DNA from: a virus
DNA length: 21,241 nt
Reading direction: 5' to 3' (one strand)
IMG/VR virus record: IMGVR_UViG_3300008266_000605
Span: 1 to 21,241 of that record
The notes under the pieces are model-generated. The model worked only from the letters and a program-made list of their open reading frames with translations, was not told the origin of the DNA and made no database searches. Below, piece after piece: positions 2,982 through 8,063 of the stretch (within the stretch, counting starts at the first letter, position 1; every line of letters begins with the position of its first letter). The position numbers were made by a program, and so were the translations under genes.

Positions 2982-3539
2982 ATGGAACGCAAGGCTTTTA
3001 ATTTTTACAAATCTTATTATGAAGTATTTAAGATGCTTGAAAATGATGAAGATAAACTTCAATTCATTACTGCACTTTTAGAAAAACAATTTGAAAACAA
3101 AGAACCTGGTAAAATGTTACCGATGGCTACTTTTGCCTATAAATCTCAGGAACATAATATTATTGCACAGGTTGAAGGTTTTATTAATAAAATTAAACCC
3201 CCTACCGAAGGGGGTAGGCAAGGGGGTATTAAAGGGGGTTCGGTACAAGAGAAAGAGAAAGAGGAAGTAAAAGAGAAAGTAAAAGTAAAAGAGAAAGTAC
3301 AATTCGTAGCACCTACAATCGATGAAGTAATTAAGTTCTTTGATGATAACGGATATACGAACGGTGATAAGGCATGGAACTATTACAACGATGGGAACTG
3401 GAAGGATAGCAACGGTAAGCAGGTTATTAACTGGAAACAGAAAATGAGAATAGTATGGTTTAAGGATGAGAATAAGAAAAAAGCAATCAGATCAATACAC
3501 GACCAGGATAAAAGAACAAGAGAAATATTAGGATTATGA
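2982..3539 (+). CDS. DUF6291-like phage replication-associated protein
   Basis: A 185-residue two-part protein. Residues 1-65 (FNFYKSYYEVFKMLENDEDKLQFITALLEKQF) match the N-terminal domain found in many phage replication proteins (DUF6291-type), a helical unit. Residues 70-108 are a low-complexity linker: PPTEGGRQGGIKGG, then a run of Lys, Glu and Val. Residues 112-167 form a second domain (TIDEVIKFFDDNGY ... AWNYYNDGNWKDSNGK ... NWKQKMRIVWF) that I associate with phage primosome-type proteins near dnaB. It has its own promoter and leader and overlaps the methyltransferase start by 4 bases (ATGA). A role in primosome assembly or helicase loading is inferred from domain and place; no ATPase motif is present. 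Confidence 0.7.
   Translation: MERKAFNFYKSYYEVFKMLENDEDKLQFITALLEKQFENKEPGKMLPMATFAYKSQEHNIIAQVEGFINKIKPPTEGGRQGGIKGGSVQEKEKEEVKEKVKVKEKVQFVAPTIDEVIKFFDDNGYTNGDKAWNYYNDGNWKDSNGKQVINWKQKMRIVWFKDENKKKAIRSIHDQDKRTREILGL
3197..3239 (+). repeat. G-tract repeat and hairpin in the DUF6291 linker
   Basis: AGGGGGT occurs three times with an exact 12-base period (3209, 3221, 3233). It is preceded by its perfect complement ACCCCCT at 3197-3203, which can form a 7-bp stem with the first copy over a 5-base loop (ACCGA), or pair with either of the other copies. The unit is in frame and encodes the Pro- and Gly-rich start of the linker. An almost pure purine tract (about 3246-3298) follows and encodes the Lys/Glu part. 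Confidence 0.7.
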
Positions 3540-4510
3540 AACACGGATCATTATTTTCAGGTATTGGAGGCTTTGATCTTGCAGCAGAATGGATGGGATG
3601 GAAAAACGTTTTCCACTGCGAATGGAATCCTTTCGGGCAAAAAGTATTAAAACATTATTGGCCAAAAGCAATTAGTTATCATGACATCACAAAAACAGAC
3701 TTCACTATTCACAGAGGAGCAATTGACATCATTACAGGAGGCTTCCCATGCCAACCCTACTCATCCGCAGGAAAGCGCCTCGGCAAAGATGATGAGAGAC
3801 ATCTCTGGCCGGAAATGCTTAGATGCATTCGAGAGGTTTCCCCGCGTTGGATCGTGGGCGAGAACGTTCGCGGCCTTACTAATTGGAATGGAGGGATGGT
3901 ATTCGATGAGGTGCAGGCTGACTTGGAAACTATCGGCTACGAAGTCCTCCCGTTTCTACTTCCAGCTTGTGCCGTCAACGCTCCGCACCGAAGGGATAGA
4001 ATTTGGTTTATTGCCAACGCCGATGGCACAAAGCAGAGAAATGACAGAGGAACAGACATTGAAAAGGAAAGAGAAATATGGTGGTATAAAAAGAGCGATG
4101 TATTTGGAGAACTTTGCCGTAATGGGGATGTTACCAACACCAATATCAGGGGACTGGAAGGGGCAGAGGAGGTCGGACGGGACGGCATCAATGTTAAGTG
4201 GAAAAGCAAGTTTGGGATTGCTACCAACACCAAAAACGCAGGATTCGAGACACGCACTGAGGGACAGAGGAAAGAGCAATTTAGGAGAGGAAATGTCGGA
4301 GCTTGCGTATCAAACAACTGGCAAAACTTCCCAACTGTCTCCCCAGTTTGTAATGGAGATGATGGGCTTTCCGACAGATTGGACTCTATTACCTTTCCTA
4401 AATGGAGAAACGAATCAATCAAAGCAGGAGGTAACGCAGTAGTGCCTAAATTAGTTTACCAAATATTCAAAGCAATTGATACCTTTGAAACCCAAAACCT
4501 AAAAAAATGA
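3536..4510 (+). CDS. dcm: C5 cytosine-specific DNA methyltransferase
   Basis: A 324-residue enzyme that methylates carbon 5 of cytosine using S-adenosylmethionine. All core motifs are visible: motif I LFSGIGGFD (residues 6-14), motif IV GGFPCQPYS with catalytic Cys72, motif VI GENVRGL (108-114), motif VIII RRDRIWFIA (152-160), and motif X GGNAVVP (298-304) before the closing helix. The target-recognition region (about 161-290) is odd: hydrophilic, with recurring NADG, TNTN and TNTK segments, and is the zone most constrained by the second reading frame at 3681-4442. It likely modifies phage DNA to escape host restriction. The ATG overlaps the upstream stop (ATGA), and the TGA overlaps the dnaB start. 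The window gives no evidence of a partner restriction enzyme. The dcm symbol denotes the family only. Confidence 0.92.
   Translation: MKHGSLFSGIGGFDLAAEWMGWKNVFHCEWNPFGQKVLKHYWPKAISYHDITKTDFTIHRGAIDIITGGFPCQPYSSAGKRLGKDDERHLWPEMLRCIREVSPRWIVGENVRGLTNWNGGMVFDEVQADLETIGYEVLPFLLPACAVNAPHRRDRIWFIANADGTKQRNDRGTDIEKEREIWWYKKSDVFGELCRNGDVTNTNIRGLEGAEEVGRDGINVKWKSKFGIATNTKNAGFETRTEGQRKEQFRRGNVGACVSNNWQNFPTVSPVCNGDDGLSDRLDSITFPKWRNESIKAGGNAVVPKLVYQIFKAIDTFETQNLKK
3681..4442 (+). CDS. Overprinted protein nested inside the methyltransferase gene
   Basis: A 253-codon ATG-initiated ORF lying entirely within the methyltransferase gene in the +1 frame relative to it. Its protein reads as a structured sequence: N-terminus TSLFTEEQLTSLQEASHANP, a middle GSWARTFAALLIGMEGWYSM...LTWKLSATKSS RFYFQLVPST, three LPTP repeats (residues 111, 151, 181), and a C-terminal LSPQFVMEMMGFPTDWTLLP. 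From memory, proteins with SWAR...LTWK...QLVPS, repeated LPTP and LNPxFVExMMGFPxxW occur widely in phages, including where they do not overlap a methyltransferase; this needs a search. Motif IV of the enzyme is read here as SHANPT and motif VI as WARTF. Function is unknown; a methylation-linked or anti-restriction role is a guess. The alternative is a long shadow ORF kept open by chance. Confidence 0.65.
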   Translation: MTSQKQTSLFTEEQLTSLQEASHANPTHPQESASAKMMRDISGRKCLDAFERFPRVGSWARTFAALLIGMEGWYSMRCRLTWKLSATKSSRFYFQLVPSTLRTEGIEFGLLPTPMAQSREMTEEQTLKRKEKYGGIKRAMYLENFAVMGMLPTPISGDWKGQRRSDGTASMLSGKASLGLLPTPKTQDSRHALRDRGKSNLGEEMSELAYQTTGKTSQLSPQFVMEMMGFPTDWTLLPFLNGETNQSKQEVTQ

Positions 4511-5879: not shown

Positions 5880-8063
5880 ATGAACAAAGATTATCTGCAA
5901 TTCCTACAAAGGAAACAAAAAACCCATGTTAATTCAGGCTTTGAAATTTCAGAAGATGCCCTTAATGGCTATTTATTTGACTTTCAAAAGTTTATTGTAA
6001 AACGTGCATTAAAGGCCGGCAAATATGCAATCTTTGCCGACTGCGGACTTGGTAAAACTTTGATGCAATTAGAATGGTCTCGTCAGGTATTTATCAAAAC
6101 AGAAAAACCAGTATTGATATTAGCACCGCTTGCCGTTGCAGGACAAACAATAAAGGAAGGTAATAAATTTGGTATCAATGTACAAAAATACGATAATGAA
6201 TCACCAATACAAATCACTAATTATGAGCAATTGGAAAATATAGATTGCTCACAATTTGCTGGCATAGTACTTGATGAATCTTCAATACTTAAAAACTTTG
6301 AAGGACAAATAAAGAAATTTATAATTGATAAATTCAAAGATACTCCATATAAGTTAGCTTGTACAGCGACTCCTTCACCTAACGATCCGATGGAATTAGG
6401 CAACCATTCAGAGTTTTTGGATGTAATGAGTCGAAATGAGATGCTTGCCATGTACTTTGTGCATGATGGAGGGGAAACGGCAAAATGGAGATTAAAAGGT
6501 CATGCAATTAAATTGTTCTATCAGTTTGTAGGATCATGGGCAATAATGCTGAATAAACCTGCTGATATAGGGTTTGCTATGGATGGGTATAATCTGCCAA
6601 CACTTAATCTAATTGAAAAGGAAATAAAAACTAAAAAGCGGGATAATGGATTACTTTTCAATGATGCCATAATATCGGCTACTAACTTTAATCAGGAATT
6701 AAGACTAACAAAGATTGAAAGATTAGATGAAGCGGCAAAGATTGTAAATGATTCAGAAGAAAACTTTATCATATGGATAAAGCAAAATGAGGAAGGTGAA
6801 TTGCTTAAAAAATTGATTCCAGATGCAATAGAAGTAAAAGGATCTGATGCGCCTGAATATAAAGAAAAGATGCTATTAGGATTTGCTAATAATGAATTTA
6901 GGGTACTTATAACAAAAACCAAAATAGCACAATTCGGACTTAATTATCAGAATTGCCGTAATCAAATATTTGCATCATTGGATTTTAGCTTTGAGGGATT
7001 GTATCAGGCTATACGCAGATCTTATAGATTTGGGCAAAAGAATGAAGTAAATATATTTTTAATTACTACCGATACCATGAAAAATGTTAATGAATCTATT
7101 AACCAAAAACAAAAACAATTTGAAATTATGCAAAATGAAATGAGTAATGCTATTAATGAGAATCTTAATGGCAGTAAAATGACAATGGCAAATTATGACA
7201 TTAATGAAGAAACTAATGAATGGTATAAAATTAAGAGGGGCGATTGTGTTCAATTAATATCTCAATTAGAATCTGAATCTGTTGGCCTTAGCGTATTTTC
7301 TCCGCCATTCGCAGAACTTTATACTTATAGTAGTCATGTTGAGGATATGGGTAATTCAAAAGATTATAATGAATTCCTGACTCAATTTGGATATTTAATA
7401 AAAGAACTTTATCGCATCATGAAACAAGGCAGAAATGTATGCGTTCATTGTATGGATCTTCCAATACAAAAAGGTAAGGAAGGTTTTATCGGACTTCGTG
7501 ACTTTTCAGGCATGATATTAAAATCTTTTGAAGATGCAGGTTTTATTTATGCATCAAGGGTTACAATATGGAAAGATCCAGTTGTAGAAATGCAAAGGAC
7601 TAAGGCACTCGGATTATTGCATAAACAGGTAAAAAAAGATTCGACAATGAGTCGAGTAGGTATTCCTGATTATGTTATGATATTCAGAAAGGATGGAGAA
7701 AGAACTGATCCTGTAACTAATACTAATTTAAGCGTTGACCTTTGGCAGAAAATAGCATCACCGGTATGGATGGATATTAACTATTCAAATACATTACAAG
7801 GTTATCGTAATGGCAGGGAAGAAAATGATGAAAAGCATATTTGCCCTTTGCAATTAGATACTATTGAAAGATTAATTTTACTTTATTCAAATAAAGGAGA
7901 TACGGTATTTACACCTTTTATGGGTATTGGTAGTGAGATATTTCAGGCAGTAAAAATGGAAAGGAAAGGTATTGGATTTGAATTAAAAGAAAGTTATTAT
8001 GATTTGGCAAAGGCTAATTTGAAAGCAGCCATAAGTGAAAAAGCGCAGGTAAGTTTATTTTAA
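5880..8063 (+). CDS. SF2 helicase fused to a DNA methyltransferase
   Basis: A 727-residue two-enzyme protein. Residues about 30-420 are a SNF2/DEAD-type helicase: ADCGLGKT (Walker A, 53-60), LAPLAV (81-86), LDESS (motif II, 131-135), CTATPSP (motif III, 161-167), and QAIRRSYRFGQ (motif VI, 376-386). Residues about 446-715 are an amino-methyltransferase in the permuted (beta-class) order: catalytic SPPF (474-477) first, then the S-adenosylmethionine motif TPFMGIGSE (678-686) near the end. SPPY/F is typical of N4-cytosine enzymes, DPPY of N6-adenine ones, so N4-cytosine is the better guess. No nuclease domain is visible, so this is not a complete restriction enzyme. The gene ends the early module just before a terminator, and looks more AT-rich in codon use than dnaB. 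Confidence 0.88.
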   Translation: MNKDYLQFLQRKQKTHVNSGFEISEDALNGYLFDFQKFIVKRALKAGKYAIFADCGLGKTLMQLEWSRQVFIKTEKPVLILAPLAVAGQTIKEGNKFGINVQKYDNESPIQITNYEQLENIDCSQFAGIVLDESSILKNFEGQIKKFIIDKFKDTPYKLACTATPSPNDPMELGNHSEFLDVMSRNEMLAMYFVHDGGETAKWRLKGHAIKLFYQFVGSWAIMLNKPADIGFAMDGYNLPTLNLIEKEIKTKKRDNGLLFNDAIISATNFNQELRLTKIERLDEAAKIVNDSEENFIIWIKQNEEGELLKKLIPDAIEVKGSDAPEYKEKMLLGFANNEFRVLITKTKIAQFGLNYQNCRNQIFASLDFSFEGLYQAIRRSYRFGQKNEVNIFLITTDTMKNVNESINQKQKQFEIMQNEMSNAINENLNGSKMTMANYDINEETNEWYKIKRGDCVQLISQLESESVGLSVFSPPFAELYTYSSHVEDMGNSKDYNEFLTQFGYLIKELYRIMKQGRNVCVHCMDLPIQKGKEGFIGLRDFSGMILKSFEDAGFIYASRVTIWKDPVVEMQRTKALGLLHKQVKKDSTMSRVGIPDYVMIFRKDGERTDPVTNTNLSVDLWQKIASPVWMDINYSNTLQGYRNGREENDEKHICPLQLDTIERLILLYSNKGDTVFTPFMGIGSEIFQAVKMERKGIGFELKESYYDLAKANLKAAISEKAQVSLF

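Follow-up and report, generated by a model that had tools for sequence, protein, structure and literature searches.

A +1-frame gene nested in a phage C5 cytosine methyltransferase gene probably encodes the recognition half of a naturally split enzyme

The closest described systems to the gene pair considered here are C5 cytosine methyltransferases divided between two polypeptides. The pair lies in a phage contig from the IMG/VR virus record IMGVR_UViG_3300008266_000605 and consists of a methyltransferase gene, alpha, and a second gene, beta, nested within it in the +1 frame; all positions refer to the whole 21,241-nucleotide stretch that was analyzed (the window). To our knowledge, long same-strand overprinted genes have seldom been proven in bacteria or phages. 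In the 1995 work of Lee et al. on M.EcoHK31I, the coding sequence of the small polypeptide reportedly lay inside the large gene, in an alternative frame. M.EcoHK31I (YGGCCR), which has been characterized in the laboratory, is a naturally split two-polypeptide C5 methyltransferase (PMC3404938, PMC3439449), in which the large subunit carries motifs I-VIII and X and motif IX is found only in the small polypeptide (PMC3404938). Artificially split M.SssI and M.HhaI reassemble into active enzyme from non-covalent fragments, overlapping or not, and the best split point of C5 enzymes lies between motif VIII and the target-recognition domain (TRD) (PMC3404938). A second protein can also be hidden in a methylase gene in another way, as in the ShiLan-type hidden HNH endonuclease, a homing endonuclease on a mobile insertion in mycobacteriophage methylase genes (PMC11855218).

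We propose, with a probability of roughly 0.83, that alpha and beta each encode half of a single C5 cytosine methyltransferase, naturally split in the manner of M.EcoHK31I. One polypeptide with the large domain and motif X and another with a TRD and motif IX make up the arrangement of a naturally split C5 methyltransferase. Alpha (3536-4510) would supply the catalytic large domain, with S-adenosylmethionine (SAM) binding, the catalytic Cys and motifs I-VIII, together with the C-terminal motif X helix. Beta (3681-4442) would be translated in the +1 frame from its own internal start and would provide the small DNA-recognition domain, with its LPTP-repeat region as TRD, plus motif IX. The two polypeptides would then assemble into one methyltransferase whose target specificity is set by beta, and the assembled enzyme may methylate the phage's own DNA, probably as a defense against host restriction. 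The features of the locus are as follows.

3536-4510, + strand: alpha, C5 cytosine DNA methyltransferase catalytic polypeptide of 324 amino acids, motifs I-VIII and X, no motif IX seen (PF00145, AlphaFold/Foldseek)
3681-4442, + strand: beta, overprinted +1 gene of 253 amino acids, probable target-recognition and motif IX subunit (PHROG_1008, +1 overlap in homologue loci, synonymous constraint)
3545-3586, + strand: alpha motif I, SAM binding, SLFSGIGGFDLAA (sequence; invariant alignment columns)
3737-3763, + strand: alpha motif IV with the catalytic Cys, GGFPCQPYS (sequence; invariant alignment columns)
3860-3868, + strand: alpha motif VI, ENV (sequence; conserved columns)
3989-4015, + strand: alpha motif VIII, RRDRIWFIA (sequence; conserved columns)
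4421-4447, + strand: alpha motif X, KAGGNAVVP, in the alpha frame and spanning the beta stop codon (sequence; conserved columns)
3681-4005, + strand: dual-constrained overlap, beta N-terminal region (SWARTF..LTWK..QLVPST) over alpha motifs III-VIII (four-fold sites, both frames)
4006-4334, + strand: beta LPTP-repeat region, putative TRD; alpha there is mostly a passive open linker (four-fold sites; alpha pLDDT, the AlphaFold per-residue confidence)
4011-4022, + strand: beta LPTP segment 1 (translation)
4131-4142, + strand: beta LPTP segment 2 (translation)
4221-4232, + strand: beta LPTP segment 3, profile-aligned with the canonical PTLTA..KGG strand just before motif IX (hhalign)
4335-4385, + strand: beta motif IX-like segment, LSPQFVMEMMGFPTDWT (hhalign against canonical RRLTPRECARLQGFPD; in-silico chimera)

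Alpha has the large-domain fold and motifs I, IV (PCQ with the catalytic Cys), VI (ENV), VIII and X of a C5 cytosine DNA methyltransferase, and a Foldseek search with its AlphaFold model matched the large domains of M.HhaI (E 2e-11) and M.HaeIII. An earlier note on this DNA had credited frame one with every core motif. This does not hold: the PF00145 (DNA_methylase) match of alpha (9.9e-44) covers model positions 1-204 of 324 only, no motif IX was seen in frame one, and a motif IX-like segment was found in the +1 frame alone. Alpha is therefore not a canonical single-chain enzyme, in which one frame encodes motifs I-VIII, the TRD, motif IX and motif X together. The C-terminal end of beta is the motif IX-like segment LSPQFVMEMMGFPTDW, which follows a conserved pattern, L-S/N-P-x-F/W-V-x-x-x-M-G-F/Y-P-x-x-W. 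In hhalign comparisons this C-terminus aligned with canonical motif IX, and the preceding LPTPxAxDxKG unit aligned with the PTLTAxxxKGG strand before it. An initial comparison of beta with 13 canonical enzymes gave E 0.14 at motif IX, and the match became clearer after canonical enzymes were added and gap-rich columns dropped; the score of the beta end on the canonical TRD end and motif IX was 27.0, against a mean of 12.4 and a maximum of 24.6 in 300 column permutations. When the beta segment was put between motifs VIII and X of alpha as an in-silico chimera, the C-terminal score against the canonical profile rose from 8.9 to 20.0 bits, in the correct order. A motif IX-like segment is thus present in beta and missing from alpha, and beta is very probably the target-recognition/motif IX half.

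Beta belongs to a conserved family that we found nowhere without alpha. It matches PHROG_1008 (1.4e-23) and alpha matches PHROG_363, both labelled DNA methyltransferase; beta had no match in Pfam or NCBIfam, and a PDB sequence search gave none at E 10. The best 80 IMG/VR matches to beta, mostly 43-62% identical in beta, all also encode alpha over the same DNA. The family extends to more distant members in phages of Paenibacillus, Lacticaseibacillus and Bacteroides and in marine phages, and to further ones in phages of E. coli, Salmonella, Klebsiella and Pseudomonas, on one Leptospira plasmid and on bacterial contigs spanning many phyla. The annotations of Paenibacillus phage Tadhana (gp54/gp55) and Escherichia phage K1G (gp34/gp35) already include the two frames and label either product "DNA methyltransferase". 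Among the window and the loci fetched by beta homology, beta overlaps an alpha open reading frame (ORF) in +1 in 249 of 249 loci, and none holds a free-standing beta, which does not bear out the statement in the earlier note that some phage proteins of this pattern overlap no methyltransferase. Because selection on beta was to be avoided, 80 viral loci were also fetched with alpha peptide patterns only, and all 80 carry beta. As a negative control, C5 methyltransferases from bacterial genomes that hold alpha/beta pairs were sorted by whether their Pfam match was full-length or truncated. Beta was absent from all 14 with a full-length match, whose core is broken by 10-25 stops in +1, and present in 15 of the 16 with a truncated match. 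Three of the 14 gave a weak beta-profile score (13-31 bits) over its first ~60 codons only, a shadow of motifs IV-V. The alpha/beta pair is inseparable in the loci examined.

Several loci have unusual forms of the pair. Three contigs (L027, L029 and L037) share a 6-base insertion, TAACTA, at alpha codon 84, exactly between the motif IV Pro and catalytic Cys codons (GGFP-stop-L-CQP); it breaks alpha and leaves beta open, and in IMG/VR the exact pattern is found in these three contigs only. Alpha may be dead there, or some recoding may take place. A plasmid of Bacteroides finegoldii (L085) has three in-frame TGA codons in alpha over a beta that is open for >350 codons, which raises the question of decay of alpha alone or of recoding. 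In two loci of Ligilactobacillus pabuli (L247, L268) alpha is interrupted and the beta ORF continues into the motif X segment of alpha. In Mycobacterium phage AlpineSix (L389, 1198-2117) two frames share alpha and the third has a C-terminus like that of beta, so the pair may be rearranged or in decay. One Roseovarius chromosome (OX638333.1) has five loci (L215, L217, L219, L220, L221) whose match statistics are identical, which suggests a repeated prophage or element carrying the pair.

The beta ORF starts with ATG at 3681 and ends with TAG at 4440-4442, in frame +1 relative to the alpha ORF; its coordinates and translation agree with the earlier description of a 253-codon, ATG-started +1 ORF with three LPTP segments inside a C5 methyltransferase gene. 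The +1 frame is free of stops for 263 codons across beta. When the synonymous codons of alpha were shuffled, the mean +1 run was 99 codons and a run this long arose in 2 of 10,000 trials; recoding alpha with codons from other phage genes gave a mean of 56, a maximum of 146 and no run this long in 10,000. Seven other + strand genes tested had +1 runs of 24-62 codons only. An ATG stands at or near the aligned start position in 41 of 44 close homologues, and the strongest Shine-Dalgarno-like site around the start of beta has a mean of -8.6 kcal/mol in the Bacillota members, compared with -3.7 for control windows in other frames.

Selection on the two frames was evaluated as third-base identity at four-fold degenerate codons whose amino acid and first two bases are conserved, among 50 non-redundant homologues. 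For alpha this identity was 0.46 before the overlap (bootstrap 0.40-0.51) and 0.48 after it. Within the overlap it rose to 0.72 (0.65-0.79) over motifs IV-VIII, 0.87 (0.80-0.93) in the variable region and 0.85 (0.73-0.96) in the motif IX/X part, the reduced synonymous change that the earlier note had put forward as a check. The four-fold sites of beta itself had an identity of 0.85 over alpha motifs IV-VIII, and therefore both frames are constrained there. Over most of 4041-4295 they were at background level (0.42-0.45). Amino-acid identity over 4006-4344 was 0.42 for beta and 0.30 for alpha, and that of alpha was only about 0.25-0.3 over 4041-4295, so that the constraint there falls on beta alone and alpha need merely stay open. 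The AlphaFold model of alpha agrees with such a linker role: it has a confident large domain, pLDDT mostly <50 at residues 167-272, and then the motif X helix. The contrast between inside and outside was replicated in 75 more divergent alpha-fetched loci (0.57 inside, 0.30-0.33 outside). Each of the two frames is open, conserved and subject to selection. The family, the openness shuffles and the synonymous constraint together indicate that beta is a true second, overprinted gene and not a shadow, as the earlier note had argued. That note would have withdrawn the claim had homologues shown frequent stops in this frame or free synonymous change in the main one, and had there been no independent homologues of frame two; beta is interrupted in just two of 81 close homologues, synonymous sites are strongly constrained, and homologues exist.

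A second nested class was found among loci fetched as controls. These enzymes (L365-L384) keep motif IX in frame, but a further conserved ORF, unlike beta and about 210-230 codons long, lies in their +1 frame; we call this family beta-prime (about 210-250 codons overall). A search with the beta-prime protein gave 38 loci (L397-L434), and in all 58 loci examined beta-prime overlaps alpha in +1. Its four-fold third-base identity was 0.64 inside and 0.31 outside (25 non-redundant). One segment of beta-prime is homologous to the in-frame canonical TRD region (53% identity over 36 residues, blastp 2e-8), and therefore nested +1 TRD pieces are not peculiar to the family in the window.

Three other explanations of the second frame were weighed. 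If it were a shadow, with +1 kept open by the conserved codons of alpha and by codon bias and no protein made, the faint beta-profile scores of three canonical methyltransferases would be accounted for. This is barely credible, since the third bases of alpha are far more conserved inside the overlap than outside, beta is the better conserved frame where alpha is not conserved, canonical enzymes carry many +1 stops, and the openness has P 2e-4 or less. The shuffles, third-base identity, canonical controls and alpha-fetched replicate refute a shadow of conserved alpha codons at the sequence level. Programmed frameshifting could instead yield a single polypeptide that runs from alpha motifs I-VIII into the +1 frame for the TRD and motif IX and perhaps back for motif X. 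The motif order is collinear with the canonical enzyme for such a product, and the chimera scores higher; on the other hand, beta has its own aligned ATG with Shine-Dalgarno-like sites in Bacillota members, its N-terminal region over alpha motifs IV-VIII is constrained and would be unneeded in a frameshift product, and M.EcoHK31I consists of two polypeptides. We consider this highly improbable.

Beta could also be a genuine overprinted protein that is no enzyme half, such as a regulator, chaperone, protective partner or anti-restriction factor. This is unlikely, though better than either alternative above: most of beta is without a recognizable domain and its N-terminal part is without a counterpart shown in canonical enzymes, and against these stand its motif IX-like ending at the collinear place and its tie to alphas that lack motif IX, with no beta in the full-length canonical enzymes of the same genomes. 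Of the roles the earlier note had offered, to regulate, complete or protect the methyltransferase, the evidence favors completion. A hidden HNH element was tried and rejected, as beta has no HNH match in Pfam, NCBIfam or PHROG and overlaps the conserved core rather than an insertion.

Several observations count against the split-enzyme explanation. The predicted TRD of M.EcoHK31I was placed in the large subunit (PMC3404938), and not in the small one as we propose for beta. The HHalign match to motif IX is short and weak by ordinary hidden Markov model standards (probability 7.6%, P 0.0046), and because of this low probability the alignment is supportive and not conclusive. The AlphaFold model of beta alone is poor (pLDDT 49) and was left out of the fold search. 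No clear Shine-Dalgarno sequence lies upstream of 3681 in the window, so separate initiation there is inferred. The selection statistic is a count of third-base identity with a column bootstrap and not a phylogenetic model, and among the 81 close homologues three alpha frames are interrupted along with the two of beta.

In the window, the pair is flanked by a DUF6291-family gene and a DnaB helicase gene, inside a replication module. Two genes downstream (5880-8063) is a 727-amino-acid protein with helicase domains (ResIII, weak, and Helicase_C) fused to an N6_N4 DNA methylase domain.

The nested-frame layout is widespread and usually unannotated. We lean toward a joint reading, held less firmly than the split enzyme itself, in which nested-frame splitting is general and ancient in phage and prophage C5 methyltransferases: alphas without motif IX would be obligate alpha/beta pairs whose recognition half lies wholly in +1 over the catalytic half, and at least one further class (beta-prime) would have a TRD piece in +1 of enzymes that keep motif IX in frame. 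If so, specificity would be free to evolve in beta, with no more than a passive linker encoded by alpha below it. The split enzyme by itself would already give the overprinting a clear rationale, with one DNA stretch serving both halves of an enzyme across loci of many bacterial phyla. Because a single frame is usually retained in annotation, many of the "methyltransferases" that databases list for phages may be half enzymes; alpha cloned alone would be expected to give an inactive protein and wrong conclusions on phage anti-restriction. The layout also lets a change of specificity by exchange of the nested gene be tested directly.

We found no description of the alpha/beta family in the literature on overprinted methyltransferase genes, a search with most subscription journals and REBASE outside its scope. 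M.EcoHK31I already represents the kind; what appears to be new is how widely it occurs, how the constraint is zoned, with evidence that the recognition region lies in beta, and the beta-prime class. PHROG_1008 and PHROG_363 are catalogued as separate methyltransferase families and not as complementary halves of one enzyme. The ShiLan type likewise conceals a second protein in a phage methylase gene by use of another frame, but beta is not an insertion, gives no match to HNH and is fixed together with alpha. M.AquI (CYCGRG) is likewise a two-polypeptide C5 methyltransferase, split in the variable region; its split point differs because motif X stays in alpha here. The likeness to M.EcoHK31I, which is one of layout and motifs and not of direct sequence comparison, is closer: alpha has motifs I-VIII and X and no IX, the smaller polypeptide has motif IX (a short match of moderate strength), and beta lies in an alternative frame inside the large gene in every one of the 249 loci, as is reported for M.EcoHK31I. 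The differences are that the constraint on the putative recognition region (4006-4344) is here in beta and not in alpha, which argues against a TRD in the large subunit although the identity of the TRD is itself inferred, and that the enzyme here belongs to a phage and no restriction partner was seen. Artificially split M.SssI and M.HhaI were engineered from single-frame genes and are not overprinted as here; alpha/beta pairs would be the natural counterparts of such split methyltransferases built for targeted DNA methylation.
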